Shown here: positions 50,632-56,809 of the stretch, one piece after another
Position numbering within the stretch: the first letter of the stretch is position 1
Layout of the letters: the number at the start of each line of letters is the position of its first letter
Origin: Caulobacter sp. 17J80-11
GTDB taxonomy: Bacteria; Pseudomonadota; Alphaproteobacteria; Caulobacterales; Caulobacteraceae
Direction of reading: 5' to 3'
Assembly (NCBI RefSeq): GCF_014349105.1
Contig: NZ_JACSJI010000009.1
Span: 62,001 to 126,000 of the forward strand
DNA length: 64,000 bases
Made by a program: the position numbers and the translations under genes
The notes under the pieces: generated by a model
What the model was told of the DNA's origin: nothing
The model's database searches: none
The model's input: only the letters and a program-made list of their open reading frames with translations

Positions 50632-51315
50632 CTACTGCCGCTTGTCCGGGCGACGCGGCCGCGGCTCAGGCGGGGGCGGCTCGCCGCCAGGCATGTCCTC
50701 GCGGACGTGGTATTCGCGCCGGGCGTCGCGCTGCATGCGCAGCTCCTCCTCGCCCATGCCCAAGCCCTGCTGGCGCATGCGCGTGGAGCTCACCTCCGTC
50801 GGGTTGTACAGGTCGTCCGCCGGCTCGCCGGTACGATCGCCTTTCCATTCGCGCCGCGCGGAGGCGCGGTCCCGTTCATGATCGTCTCTGCCGGCGCTCA
50901 TCTCGGCGGCTCCTTGCTGGGGCGCGACCACGTTCGGCGCGGGCGCGCCGCCAAGGTCGGCGTCGGCCCGGGCGACCACGGTGGTCACACCGGGCTGGTC
51001 GGGACTGAGGCTGCCGGCCGCATCGCCGGGATCGCGGTCGCGGATCTCCGCCTCGGTGCGGAATTCGTAGCCGGTCTCCAGCGGCCCGCCGCTGACCTCG
51101 CCGGGCACGATCAGGTCGTCCGGGTCCACTTCCGGATCGTCGATCTCGAACACGCCCGGGTCGTCGAACTCGACGCCGCCGACGTGGCGGGCGCTGCCGG
51201 CGAAGACCTGGTGTTCGCTCTCCATCGCCTCTTCAGCCGCCCGGCGCTCGAACGCGCGGCGCTCTTCGGGGCTGTCCAGGTCGGGGGTCTGCGGCAGGTC
51301 GGGAAGATGCGGCAT
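50632..51315 (-). CDS. Acidic hypothetical protein, second gene of unknown operon
   Basis: An unrecognised 227-residue hydrophilic protein. Composition is strongly acidic in the middle (VEFDDPGVFEIDDPEVDPDDLIVPGE) and charged/mixed at the C-terminus (DDHERDRASARREWKGDRTG, EPRPRRPDKRQ), with no signal or membrane segment; it is likely disordered. GAGGAGAGG precedes ATG at 51315, and the frame is open upstream only as a shadow. It starts 14 bases after the previous gene stops. Function unknown. Confidence 0.72.
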   Translation of the reverse strand: MPHLPDLPQTPDLDSPEERRAFERRAAEEAMESEHQVFAGSARHVGGVEFDDPGVFEIDDPEVDPDDLIVPGEVSGGPLETGYEFRTEAEIRDRDPGDAAGSLSPDQPGVTTVVARADADLGGAPAPNVVAPQQGAAEMSAGRDDHERDRASARREWKGDRTGEPADDLYNPTEVSSTRMRQQGLGMGEEELRMQRDARREYHVREDMPGGEPPPPEPRPRRPDKRQ

Positions 51316-51644: not shown

Positions 51645-51730
51645 CACAAAAACTCCATACACACCCCCCGCGGCCCTCCTCCGACAGGCAGTTCCGCCTC
51701 CCGGAGTAGGGCCGCAGATTCATAAGCTTG

Positions 51731-51780
51731 TGGTCCGGCCTCACCCCAACAGCCGGGGACCACCTGTTGGGGCCGGACCA
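51731..51780. repeat. 17-bp bulged stem-loop upstream of purL
   Basis: TGGTCCGG (51731-51738) and CCCCAACAG (51744-51752) pair perfectly with CTGTTGGGG (51764-51772) and CCGGACCA (51773-51780); the left arm has a five-base bulge and the loop is 11 bases. No T-run follows. It sits between the divergent unknown operon and purL, 67 bases before the purL ATG. Confidence 0.7.
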
Positions 51781-51846
51781 CATGGGTGAAGCGCGCGAGC
51801 GAGGCGCCCTGTTCCCCGGCGTCTGAATCCGCTAATTCGCCCGGCC

Positions 51847-54048
51847 ATGACCTCAGCCGCCCCCGCCAAGACCAGCGCCGAGCTCGCCGCCGAGTTCGGT
51901 CTGAAGCCCGACGAGTACGCTCTGATCCTGAAGCGCCTGGAGCGCGAGCCCACCCTGGTGGAGCTCGGCGTGTTCAGCGTGATGTGGAGCGAGCACTGCT
52001 CCTACAAGTCCTCGCGCGCCCACCTGCGCAAGTTCCCGACCTCCGGCCCCAAGGTGATTCAGGGCCCCGGCGAGAACGCCGGCGTGGTCGACATCGGCGA
52101 CGGCCAGGCGGCCGTGTTCAAGATGGAGAGCCACAACCACCCGTCCTACATCGAGCCCTACCAGGGCGCGGCGACGGGCGTGGGCGGCATCATGCGCGAC
52201 GTCTTCACCATGGGCGCGCGTCCCGTCGCCCTGCTGAACGCGCTGCGCTTCGGCGATCCGAACCATCCGAAGACCAAGCGCCTGGTCGCCGGCGTCGTGG
52301 CCGGCATCGGCGGCTACGGCAACTGCGTGGGCGTGCCCACCGTCGGCGGCGAGACCAACTTCCACCCCGGCTGGAACGGCAACATCCTGGTCAACGCCAT
52401 GTGCGTGGGCCTGGCCGACGCCGACAAGATCTTCTACTCGGCCGCCCCGGCGGCCGGCCTGCCGGTGGTCTACTTCGGCTCCAAGACCGGCCGCGACGGC
52501 ATCCACGGCGCGACCATGTCCTCGGCCGAGTTCAGCGAGGACTCCGAGGAGAAGCGGCCGACCGTGCAGGTCGGCGACCCGTTCGCCGAGAAGCTGCTGA
52601 TCGAAGCCACGCTGGAGCTGATGGCCTCAGGCGCGGTCGAGGCGATCCAGGACATGGGCGCCGCCGGCCTGACCTCCTCGTCGGTCGAGATGGCCGGCAA
52701 GGGCGGCGTCGGCATCGAGCTCGACCTCGACGCCGTGCCGCAGCGCGAAGAGAACATGTCGGCCTACGAGATGATGCTGTCGGAGAGCCAGGAGCGCATG
52801 CTGGCGATCCTGAAGCCCGGCCGCGAGGCCGACGCCCACCGCATCTTCTCCAAGTGGCACCTCGACGCCGCGGTGATCGGCCAGACCACCGACACCGGCC
52901 GCATCGTGCTGCGCCACAAGGGCGAGGTGGTCTGCGACCTGCCGCTGGCCCCGCTGGCCGACGACGCGCCGCTGTACGAGCGTCCGTTCGTGAAGCCGAC
53001 CCCGCCGGCCCGCCTCGACCCGAAGCAGGTCCCGGCCCCGGCCGACTGGAACGACGCGGTGCTGAAGCTGATGAGCACCCCGGACATGGCGTCCAAGCGC
53101 TGGATCTGGGAGCAGTACGACCGCCACGTCATGGCCGACACGGTCGCCGACAGCGCCACCGGCGCGGACGCCGGCATCGTGCGCGTGCACGGCACCAAGA
53201 AGGCGCTGGCCGTGGTCTCCGACTGCACCCCGCGCTACGTGCAGGCCGATCCGTACGAGGGCGGCAAGCAGGCGGTGGCGGAAGCCTGGCGCAACCTGAC
53301 CGCCGTCGGCGCCGACCCGATCGCCATCACCGACAACCTGAACTTCGGCAATCCCGAGCGTCCGGAGATCATGGGCCAGATCGTCAGCGCGATTGAAGGC
53401 ATGGCCGAGGCCTGCCGCGCGCTCGACTTCCCGGTCGTGAGCGGCAACGTCAGCCTCTACAACGAGACCAACGGCGTCGCCATTCCGCCGACCCCCACGG
53501 TCGGCGCGGTCGGCCTGATCCCCGACTACGACCTGCGCGCCGGCTTCGGCGGGCTGAAGGACGGCGACACCCTGGTGCTGATCGGCGACAGCAAGGGCGA
53601 GCTGGGCCAGTCGATGTACCTGCGCGCCCTGTTCGGCCGTGAGGAAGGCGCCCCGCCGCCGGTCGACCTGGCGATCGAGAAGAAGCACGGCGACTTCGTG
53701 CGCGGCCTGATCCGCTCGGGCCGGGCCAAGGTGGTGCACGACCTGTCGGACGGCGGCCTGGTCGCCGCCGCGGCCGACATGGCGCTCGCCGCCAACGTCG
53801 GCGTGACCCTGATCGCCACCTCGACCGAGCACGCCCACCCGTTCCTGTTCGGCGAAGACCAGGGCCGCTACCTGATCGCCACCCGCGACGCCGACGCCCT
53901 GCTGGCCGAGGCCAAGGCGGCGGGCGTGCACGCCATCGTGGCCGGGGAGGCCGGCGGCGACGCCTTCGCCTCGCGCGAGCTGTTCAGCGTGCCGCTGGCC
54001 GAACTGCGCAAGGCCCACGAAGGCTGGATGCCGGCCTACATGGCCTGA
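51847..54048 (+). CDS. purL: FGAM synthase large subunit PurL
   Basis: A 733-residue PurL of the small type that works with PurS and Pur[18 protein letters not shown] carries the active-site histidine, [12 protein letters not shown] and [12 protein letters not shown] follow, and the ATP-binding second half has [30 protein letters not shown] and [10 protein letters not shown]. It catalyses conversion of FGAR to FGAM with glutamine-derived ammonia. Transcription is separate from purQ, being split by the minus-strand operon. Confidence 0.97.
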
Positions 54049-54074
54049 GGCCCCCAGTCGGACTGAAACGCGAG

Positions 54075-54108
54075 GAAGCCGCCGTCGGAAGACGGCGGCT
54101 TCTTTCGT
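54075..54108 (+). terminator. Rho-independent terminator after purL
   Basis: A perfect 12-bp stem GAAGCCGCCGTC/GACGGCGGCTTC (54075-54086, 54091-54102) with GGAA loop, followed by TTTCGTTT. Confidence 0.9.
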
Positions 54109-54151
54109 TTGGGGGGCGGCCCTATGTTCGGCGCGAGCGGGGAGAGCGTGC

Positions 54152-55984
54152 GTGCAGGGCGAGTCGACGGAAACCGAGGCGGCGTGGGCGCCCCCGCCTG
54201 AGACCCTGGCCGCGCAGTTGCAGGCCGAAGGCGTGCCCGCCTGGCTGCCGAAAATGGTCGCCGAGCTCCGCAACAGGCTGAACCCGTCGGACGAGGCCCG
54301 GCTCGCCTATGGCCTGACCCAGCGCGCGCAGGCGTGGTCCGCCTTCGACGCGGCCGCCTGGGACCGGCTGGAGAGCGGCCTGCGCGCCTTCACCGAAAGC
54401 AATCCCAAGGCCGTCGCCGAGCGCCTCATAGACCGGCTGCTGGCCGGAATCGACGTGGAGTCCGGGGCGCGGCGGCGGCTGTGGGATCGCGACACGGACG
54501 CGCAGATTTCCCACACCATCACCCTGCTGGGCCGTCTTGGCGGAAATCTGTCGCTGGCGCAGCCGCGTTGGGCCGGCCGGTGGGCGCGGGACTGGTCGGA
54601 CGCGCACTTCCACCGCGCCAAGCGGGAATGGCGCGACGCCGATCCGGCCGGGGTCGAGCGGGCCTTGGCGCTGACCCGCGCCGCGGCCGTCGGAATCGCC
54701 GCGGCGGCGGTCGCCGCCCTGCCGCGTCCAAGATCTCCGTTGCGGGGCGTGGCCCACGGGTTCGCGGGCCTTCGCGACCTGGTCGAGGGCAAGCAGACGC
54801 TGGAAGACCTGCGCCGCTGGCGGGCCGTCGTCTTGGCCGGGCGCGCGGGCGTGCGCCAGGCGGCCGCGCGGGCGCGCGAGGACGCGAGATCGGTGCGGAC
54901 GCAAGAAAACGCGCTGCTGGCGGTGGACGCCGCCGGCTGGGCCGCCTGGGCGACGGAGCTGTCGCGAAGCGGCGGGCACATGATCCACGCGACGTTGGGC
55001 GCCGACCTCGCCCGCGAGCAGGCGCGCGCCGAAGCGGCGGTACGACTGATCGACGTGCTGGTCCGGGCGATGGACGCGGCGGCCGGCCTGTCCCCCGCCC
55101 CGCCGGCGCCGAGCCCGCCGACGCTGGAGGAGATCGAGGTCGCCGAGGAAGAGCGCGAGACGCGCGAGCACCGGCCGTACGCGCGGGAATGCGCGAACCC
55201 GGGCCCGGACCCCACACGCGAGCAGCGCGTGGTCCTGGCCGAGCGCCTGGTGGCGAACGGCGCGGTCGTCGCGGCGACGCGCCGGCCGGCCTTCCCGCTG
55301 AAAACCGAAGAGTGGTGGTGTCCGCTGGCCGTGTTCGGCTGGGACATCTACGACGAGAACCTCTGCCCTGACGATCTCATGCCGGGCTGGCTGGCCGATC
55401 TGGCCATGAAGCTGGGCGAAGGCTTGGGCGAAGACGGGCAGGCCGAGCTGTGCGCCGGCCTCGTGGCCCGGGCGCGCGCCTGGCCGGCCCTGGACGCCGC
55501 CGCCTGGGAGCGGATCGAACTCGACCTGCTGGACGCCGCGGTGGCGCACGCCGAAGCCGCGGCCGCGAACGCGCCGCGCGCCGAGCCCCGCTGGCGCATG
55601 TACCTGGACGCGCTCCGGCAGATGCGCTCGCGAGACGAGATCACGCGCTGGGAAGGCCGCGACGCCCTGGGCGTCATCCCCGGCCGGGGCCCGGCCGCGA
55701 CGGAGGCGCGCCTGCTGGCCCGCGCCGACGCGCGCGTCGCCGCGCTCAACGCCGCCGACCGGCGCGATCCCGACAAGGCGCGCAGCCACAACTGCGCCTG
55801 GGCGGTGAAGATGGCCGCCGAGGCCGCCGGCCAGGCGGCCTGGGCCGCGCGCATGGGCAAGGGCGCGGTGATGCGCGCGAGCCAGGCCCGCTGGTCCTAC
55901 GACAAGGCCCGCCGGGAAACCTGCCGGGCATTTATGGCCCGGCTGTTCGAGCGGATGGACGCGGAGCTCGCCGCCGCGAACTGA
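54152..55984 (+). CDS. Unrecognised internally duplicated helical protein
   Basis: A 610-residue protein matching no family I know. Start is GTG at 54152 with GGGGAGAG upstream. No signal peptide or clear membrane helix; high Ala/Arg/Glu content suggests mostly helices. Two halves are related: PAWLPKM (29) and AWSAFDAAAWDRLE (61-74) correspond to PGWLADL (411) and AWPALDAAAWERIE (443-456) with identical 32-residue spacing. A later part ENALLAVDAAGWAAWATEL (about 251) matches CAWAVKMAAEAAGQAAWAARM (about 547), and both end in a MDA helix (about 305 and 602). Repeat 1 has about 90 extra residues. The linker 310-400 is proline/glutamate-rich. Function unknown; it stands alone after a terminator. 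Confidence 0.85.
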   Translation: MQGESTETEAAWAPPPETLAAQLQAEGVPAWLPKMVAELRNRLNPSDEARLAYGLTQRAQAWSAFDAAAWDRLESGLRAFTESNPKAVAERLIDRLLAGIDVESGARRRLWDRDTDAQISHTITLLGRLGGNLSLAQPRWAGRWARDWSDAHFHRAKREWRDADPAGVERALALTRAAAVGIAAAAVAALPRPRSPLRGVAHGFAGLRDLVEGKQTLEDLRRWRAVVLAGRAGVRQAAARAREDARSVRTQENALLAVDAAGWAAWATELSRSGGHMIHATLGADLAREQARAEAAVRLIDVLVRAMDAAAGLSPAPPAPSPPTLEEIEVAEEERETREHRPYARECANPGPDPTREQRVVLAERLVANGAVVAATRRPAFPLKTEEWWCPLAVFGWDIYDENLCPDDLMPGWLADLAMKLGEGLGEDGQAELCAGLVARARAWPALDAAAWERIELDLLDAAVAHAEAAAANAPRAEPRWRMYLDALRQMRSRDEITRWEGRDALGVIPGRGPAATEARLLARADARVAALNAADRRDPDKARSHNCAWAVKMAAEAAGQAAWAARMGKGAVMRASQARWSYDKARRETCRAFMARLFERMDAELAAAN

Positions 55985-55988
55985 GGGC

Positions 55989-56678
55989 TCAATGGTCCCC
56001 TTCGCGCAGCCAGTGCGCGGTGGGCGTCGTGGCGTCCAGCCCCTCGCTGGCCTTCGCCGCGGCGCGCAGCGCGTCCTGGGAAGAGGTCGTGCAGTTGTTC
56101 TCGACCATGGTCATGCCCGCGAACGGCGCCTGGGTGGCGAAGGCCGGCTTCTCGCCGTCCTTGGCCGGGGGCGGCGGCGGCCCGCACTGCACCGGCCAGA
56201 CGCTCATCTGGATCACCCGGCCCTGGTCGTCGAGCGTCGGCCGCAGGCCCATGTAGAAGTACGCCTTGGGCTGGTCCGGCTTCTCCTCCCCGAGCTGGCC
56301 GATCATCGGATCGCCGGCCACCAGCAGGAAGCCGCCCTCCTCCTTCCACTTGCCGTCCTCGAAGGTCGAGACTCGCCCGTCGCGCAGGATCGCGTACTCC
56401 CAGGACTTCTTGTCGGCGTCGTAGTGGCTGAGGGTGTCGCCGCGGACCAGGAACCAGTTGGCGCACTTGGGCCAGCTGGTGACCGGCCGCGTCTCGTCGA
56501 ACCGGCAGTCCTTCTCCTTGCCGCCCACCCAGATTCCTTCGCGCAGCGGGGGCGTCGGCGCGGCGTCGGCGGCCGTGAACAGCGGCGCTTCGGTCGTGAC
56601 CAGGTTGCAGGCCGACAGCAAAAGGCCGGCTGAGAAAGCGAACGCTAAGCAGACGACACGCTTCCATGGGCTGGCCAT
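55989..56678 (-). CDS. Hypothetical lipoprotein
   Basis: An unrecognised 229-residue lipoprotein: signal VVCLAFAFSAGLLLSAC with lipobox LLSAC near residue 24. The mature region has GIWVGGKEKDCRFDE near its start, FLVRGDTLSHYDADKKSWEYAIL in the middle, and a proline tract QCGPPPPPAKDG near the end, suggesting an extended linker. GGAGGAG upstream fixes ATG at 56678. It is convergent with the duplicated unknown gene and divergent from the M20 dipeptidase gene. Confidence 0.8.
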   Translation of the reverse strand: MASPWKRVVCLAFAFSAGLLLSACNLVTTEAPLFTAADAAPTPPLREGIWVGGKEKDCRFDETRPVTSWPKCANWFLVRGDTLSHYDADKKSWEYAILRDGRVSTFEDGKWKEEGGFLLVAGDPMIGQLGEEKPDQPKAYFYMGLRPTLDDQGRVIQMSVWPVQCGPPPPPAKDGEKPAFATQAPFAGMTMVENNCTTSSQDALRAAAKASEGLDATTPTAHWLREGDH

Positions 56679-56809
56679 GACCGTCTCCTCCGAGCGAGAC
56701 GGCAAGGGAGCGACGTCGCGGCACCAACTGTCAAGCTTGTCGCACCTCCCTCGACGAACGCGGATCGATCGGCCTAGATGGGCGCCGTCGCCGCCAGGGA
56801 GCCTCCGCC

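Follow-up and report, generated by a model that had tools for sequence, protein, structure and literature searches.

The 610-residue protein described here is encoded in a 64,000-nt stretch of the Caulobacter sp. 17J80-11 genome (3.82 Mb, 29 contigs), hereafter the window, in which its gene lies between purL and a convergent lipoprotein gene, with an M20 peptidase gene also among its neighbors (Table 1). No biosynthetic genes adjoin it, no integrase or other phage genes were found at this chromosomal site, and no Rfam model reached its gathering score within positions 53500–56500. In terms of the start codon, identity with the sole congener in our collection, Caulobacter sp. 17J65-9, sets in precisely at VQGESTETEAAW, and all earlier frames are disrupted by a 2-nt indel immediately 5′ of this sequence; together these observations support the GTG start. 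The first-pass annotation placed the gene, with its own ribosome-binding site, between a terminator and a convergent lipoprotein gene, and all three elements (the GGGGAG sequence, the hairpin, and the lipoprotein ORF) are indeed present.

Table 1. Features of the locus and of the encoded protein (positions in the window).
Feature	Positions	Strand	Basis or remark
610-aa ORF, two-unit fusion protein	54152–55984	+	GTG start; start conserved in congener; dN/dS <1 in both testable pieces
Shine-Dalgarno-like GGGGAG, 7 nt 5′ of GTG	54139–54144	+	sequence
Terminator-like hairpin 3′ of purL	54081–54099	+	
purL, upstream neighbor	51847–54048	+	
Lipoprotein gene, convergent, downstream neighbor	55989–56705	−	ends 4 bp from 610-aa ORF
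Unit 1 core, residues 25–76, P-x-W-L helix pair, without Cys-containing N-module	54224–54379	+	independent family HMM, i-E 5.9e-10
Unit 1 lineage-specific section, residues ~79–170, end approximate	54386–54661	+	absent from congener fragment
Unit 1 Ala-rich helical arm, residues ~171–311	54662–55084	+	homology to unit 2 unsupported by sequence
Unit 2 core, residues 385–477, full family domain	55304–55582	+	independent family HMM, i-E 5.1e-20
Unit 2 conserved motif C390...C405-P406...M410-P411-x-W413	55319–55390	+	nearly invariant columns of family alignment
Unit 2 Ala-rich helices and C-terminal helix, residues 514–609	55691–55978	+	AlphaFold pLDDT up to 98 at C-terminal helix; congener 86% identical

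The protein contains an internal duplication, as had been proposed from the sequence, and it is borne out for a core of about 50 residues. BLASTP of one half against the other aligns residues 28–77 with residues 410–459 (44% identity over 50 ungapped residues, E 5e-9), and the Smith-Waterman score of the two halves is 129 as compared with a best score of 106 among 1000 shuffles. PAWL at residue 29 is followed by AWSAFDAAAWDRLE at residue 61, and PGWL at residue 411 by AWPALDAAAWERIE at residue 443, confirming the previously noted motif pairs with an identical spacing of 32 residues. An HMM of the family (described below), built without the window protein, independently finds both cores as separate domains, whereas the best of 999 shuffled whole sequences reaches only 6e-5 against the same model; a search of the organism's own genome gives only two family matches, both inside this gene. 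The repeats could in principle reflect nothing but the composition of an Ala-rich, GC-rich coding sequence, given that alanine abounds in much of the protein and that the two halves, outside the core, align with gaps and in line with composition. As an account of the whole protein this explanation is very improbable; detection of both cores by a model made from other proteins refutes it for the 50-residue core, and it is possible for the remainder.

The wider boundaries first given to the two copies (residues 29–308 and 411–610) find no support in the sequence, since any alignment past the core requires gaps and follows alanine content. A C-terminal helix in the first copy matching that of the second also fails to emerge: residues 298–309 give an i-E of 0.3 with a model of the C-terminal helix, and many shuffles score better. 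The additional 90 residues once read as an extra section of the first repeat are not shared with the congener, in which another, dissimilar Ala-rich stretch follows residue ~78. To judge from this sequence comparison, the section after residue ~78 looks like a lineage-specific, later insertion or replacement, two events that are indistinguishable in the short, Ala-rich congener fragment.

Established family models do not recognize the protein. Pfam and NCBIfam yield no match at E up to 1, PADLOC contains no matching defense model, and the only PHROGs match is at chance level (E 0.027), in agreement with the first-pass assignment to no recognized family. The relatives described below behave in the same way, with nothing useful in Pfam, NCBIfam, or PADLOC and only chance-level matches in PHROGs. 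Two Pfam families were considered and rejected. DUF6197 (PF19698), members of which have been reported from actinophages, in some cases in tandem, and from a kanamycin cluster (PMC10586128), shares a short helix-W/Q-hairpin-CALGA pattern with the family; it has no Pfam match in the window protein or elsewhere in its genome and matches one relative at E 0.11, and we did not accept membership because the profile similarity is no more than suggestive (E 0.0014–0.008, probability 5–18%). FhuF (PF06276) does not match the window protein, and its best match in a relative has E 0.0011; the best scores among the matches listed for the relatives are 13.6–13.7 bits against a cut-off of 25.2.

Relatives of the protein nevertheless exist, and most are carried by phages. 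Sequence search found two Caulobacteraceae proteins, which led to one phage relative and, through iterated alignment searches, to more than 30 distinct viral contigs; 36 distinct relatives are left after de-duplication. Single-unit homologues thus occur in these viral contigs and in several prophages, including prophages of Caulobacteraceae, and bacterial genomes with relatives are G194, G031, G171, and G195. Within the Caulobacteraceae the family is rare, being present in 5 of 299 sampled genomes, the window's own included. Unit 1 alone has no match among the viral contigs, and the family itself has none among the INPHARED phages. Pfam scans of the genes near relatives reveal Phage_integrase, ParB_N, a C5 DNA methylase, and a borderline ASCH match, and no functional partner or neighbor recurs throughout. 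The proposal of an undescribed family is therefore upheld in the broader sense, in that there are relatives and no library model catches them, but not as a stand-alone chromosomal family.

A typical member has about 180–320 residues and usually consists of an N-domain followed by a hypervariable Ala-rich tail. The family unit can be described as an N-domain of ~130 residues, comprising a helix, a short conserved-Cys hairpin, a CPxxLMPxWLA helix, and RWxxLDxAAWxR, after which come an Ala-rich arm and a C-terminal helix. Alignment columns that vary little or not at all hold Cys, Pro, Met, Trp, and Gly, and the conserved residues include no catalytic set common to the whole family. Relatives fall into two groups that share the N-domain (hhalign E 8e-27 and 4e-31); in group I it ends in RWxxLDxAAWxR, and in group II a VPFSVIHDWHAN-type stretch takes this position. 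Unit 2 of the window protein matches the whole N-domain of group I (L014, L015/G194, L016, L018, L019, L021, L022, L028, L029, L030, and G031) and also has the Cys pair, the CPxxLMPxW and AAAWER motifs, and the Ala-rich C-terminal part; the Cys pair with CPxxLMPxW is absent from unit 1. Whereas these relatives are single units of phages and prophages, the 610-residue window protein combines two units, its tail is Ala-rich and not a simple repeat, and its gene sits between purL and the lipoprotein gene in both congeners, with no phage genes adjoining.

Most group II phage tails are built of alternating Ala-x, where x is mostly Tyr, Asp, or Asn, and are highly variable in length. Four close relatives (L051–L054) have N-domains that are 82–90% identical, followed by 183, 98, 78, and 130 residues, a more than 2-fold difference that suggests slippage-driven length change of their (Ala-Tyr/Asp)n tails. 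Many assemblies end inside the family gene (L016, L017, L019, L021, L027, L039, L042, L058, and L061; L010; L011/L012), and the repetitive tail is probably the cause; short-read surveys will consequently truncate or under-count the family. A literature search found no description of this type of tail.

The AlphaFold2 model of unit 2 with 17 relatives is all-helical (pLDDT 76, pTM 0.79), and that of the full-length protein is weak (pTM 0.47). With Foldseek, neither PDB nor BFVD yielded a match at E ≤ 0.001, a result that does not show the fold to be new. The lone nominal match of the sequence profile to PDB chains, Zuotin (E 8.6e-5), spans a helical Ala-rich stretch and was taken as composition, and the top VIA-align match, the vinculin tail (Z 6.1), lies below the level of unrelated helical bundles.

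Remote branches of the family lead away from phages. The Streptomyces protein SpcZ is a relative (tblastn E 3e-9), encoded on a plasmid with an AMP-binding protein gene and metabolic genes nearby; spcZ is likewise undescribed in the spectinomycin papers that our literature search covered. SpcZ and the group II phage proteins share the N-domain with the window protein (hhalign 8e-27) but carry an H-x-W motif where the window protein has AAAW, and most of the phage members also have (Ala-x)n tails. G1222, which belongs to a different class of the phylum, encodes a full-length relative whose gene has a 4-bp overlap with the end of an NRPS gene; next come an SGNH-like protein and two TauD-type dioxygenases, with a PPTase and an ABC transporter alongside (functions assigned by eye from the sequence). 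A relative on a Streptomyces plasmid adjoins an adenylation-domain protein (NRPS), a GSCFA protein, and a TauD/TfdA dioxygenase. The two loci (L104:4482–14406 in G1222 and L107:1–5762 on the Streptomyces plasmid) thus have in common an NRPS, an SGNH/GSCFA-type protein, and a TauD-type dioxygenase, which suggests a cluster type conserved across phyla and accompanied by a SpcZ-like relative.

These associations could be read as a sign that the family acts on or carries a small molecule and that the window gene, by analogy with the SpcZ branch, is a metabolic accessory that serves a chromosomal function in metabolism. We regard such a role as improbable: SpcZ and the two NRPS-associated relatives speak for it, but the window protein belongs to group I, in which the H-x-W motif typical of the SpcZ branch is missing, and purL, the lipoprotein gene, and the M20 peptidase gene are not biosynthetic neighbors of this kind. 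The SpcZ and NRPS-associated proteins are members of a branch and not orthologues of the window gene.

Also remote are two Xanthomonas phage proteins (L105:565–1422 and L106:562–1467, with GCSVGCFAH) and a G1253 protein (L103, minus strand, 241-aa frame), the profile of which shows remote similarity to the N-domain (hhalign E 9.9e-6, probability 82%, score 38.5, the highest score among 40 column shuffles being 17.5). They resemble the family in their Ala-rich tails but differ in their Cys pattern and in having SAAESAAW or AAYAADA tails; on these profile scores, their homology to the family is probable.

We further compared the locus with that of the congener, where the order purL–gene–lipoprotein gene is kept and the assembly ends fall inside the gene, leaving an N-terminal and a C-terminal fragment; we infer that the congener has the same two-unit fusion, the middle part of which is missing at the contig ends. 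The first 78 codons give dS 0.47 and dN 0.23 (dN/dS about 0.5), and the C-terminal 89 codons give dS 0.31 and dN 0.09 (dN/dS about 0.3), as compared with dS 0.066 and dN 0.010 for purL and dS of 0.19 and 0.15 for the lipoprotein and M20 peptidase genes. Divergence therefore peaks at the window gene, which evolves fast, far above its neighbors, yet under constraint. In a more distant relative from a related genus, G007 (L088:8026–9814), the interval between purL and the lipoprotein gene holds two other genes in place of a family copy, one serine-hydrolase-like and one for a small protein that looks secreted. The site thus accepts different content, and the interval (window positions 54048–55989) may be a site of gene turnover. 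On the other side, 5′ of purL, positions 50872–51118 and 51667–51787 have no blastn alignment to the congener within surroundings that are 90–96% identical.

The high dS of the gene relative to purL, the lipoprotein gene, and the M20 peptidase gene, its lineage-specific internal section, and its phage-borne relatives would all fit a protein dedicated to defense against phages or competitors and subject to diversifying pressure, with repeated allele replacement at a conflict locus as the source of the divergence. We consider this explanation unlikely, as the comparison draws on a single congener, dN/dS is below 1, no PADLOC defense model matches, and the flanking lipoprotein and M20 genes are moderately diverged as well.

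The reading that we favor, with a probability of roughly 0.5, is that the window gene derives from a family of small accessory proteins of temperate phages of Alphaproteobacteria and is now a diverged tandem fusion on the chromosome, encoding a helical binding or oligomerizing protein with a role in phage–host conflict or lysogeny. A shortened unit 1, reduced to the PxWL/AAAW helix pair, would have been joined to a unit 2 that is complete. Given a predicted helical fold and conserved residues of structural and not catalytic appearance, the product is most likely a cytoplasmic binding or oligomerizing protein, in which the fusion would act as a built-in dimer. The phage relatives and the fast divergence favor a use in phage–host conflict or lysogeny, in which the protein might modulate functions of the host or of rival phages. 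Transfer would have run from phage to chromosome, with insertion between purL and the lipoprotein gene; as the chromosomal site is devoid of phage genes, a phage origin rests on the distribution of the relatives.

On a broader and more tentative view, the family could represent an unrecognized phage accessory superfamily, with a Cys/PxWL N-domain and tails very different in length among close relatives as its defining features, that has been recruited into natural-product clusters and, by tandem fusion, into the chromosome, where it would evolve fast in a conflict role. What had been an orphan now belongs to a testable family: relatives number more than 30 in phages and several in bacteria, and the domain they define has residues that are nearly invariant. 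The connection with SpcZ and with an NRPS operon may help to identify the binding target of this domain, and if the phage-conflict reading of the window gene is correct, it would be a case of a phage accessory protein that was fused and retained by the host.
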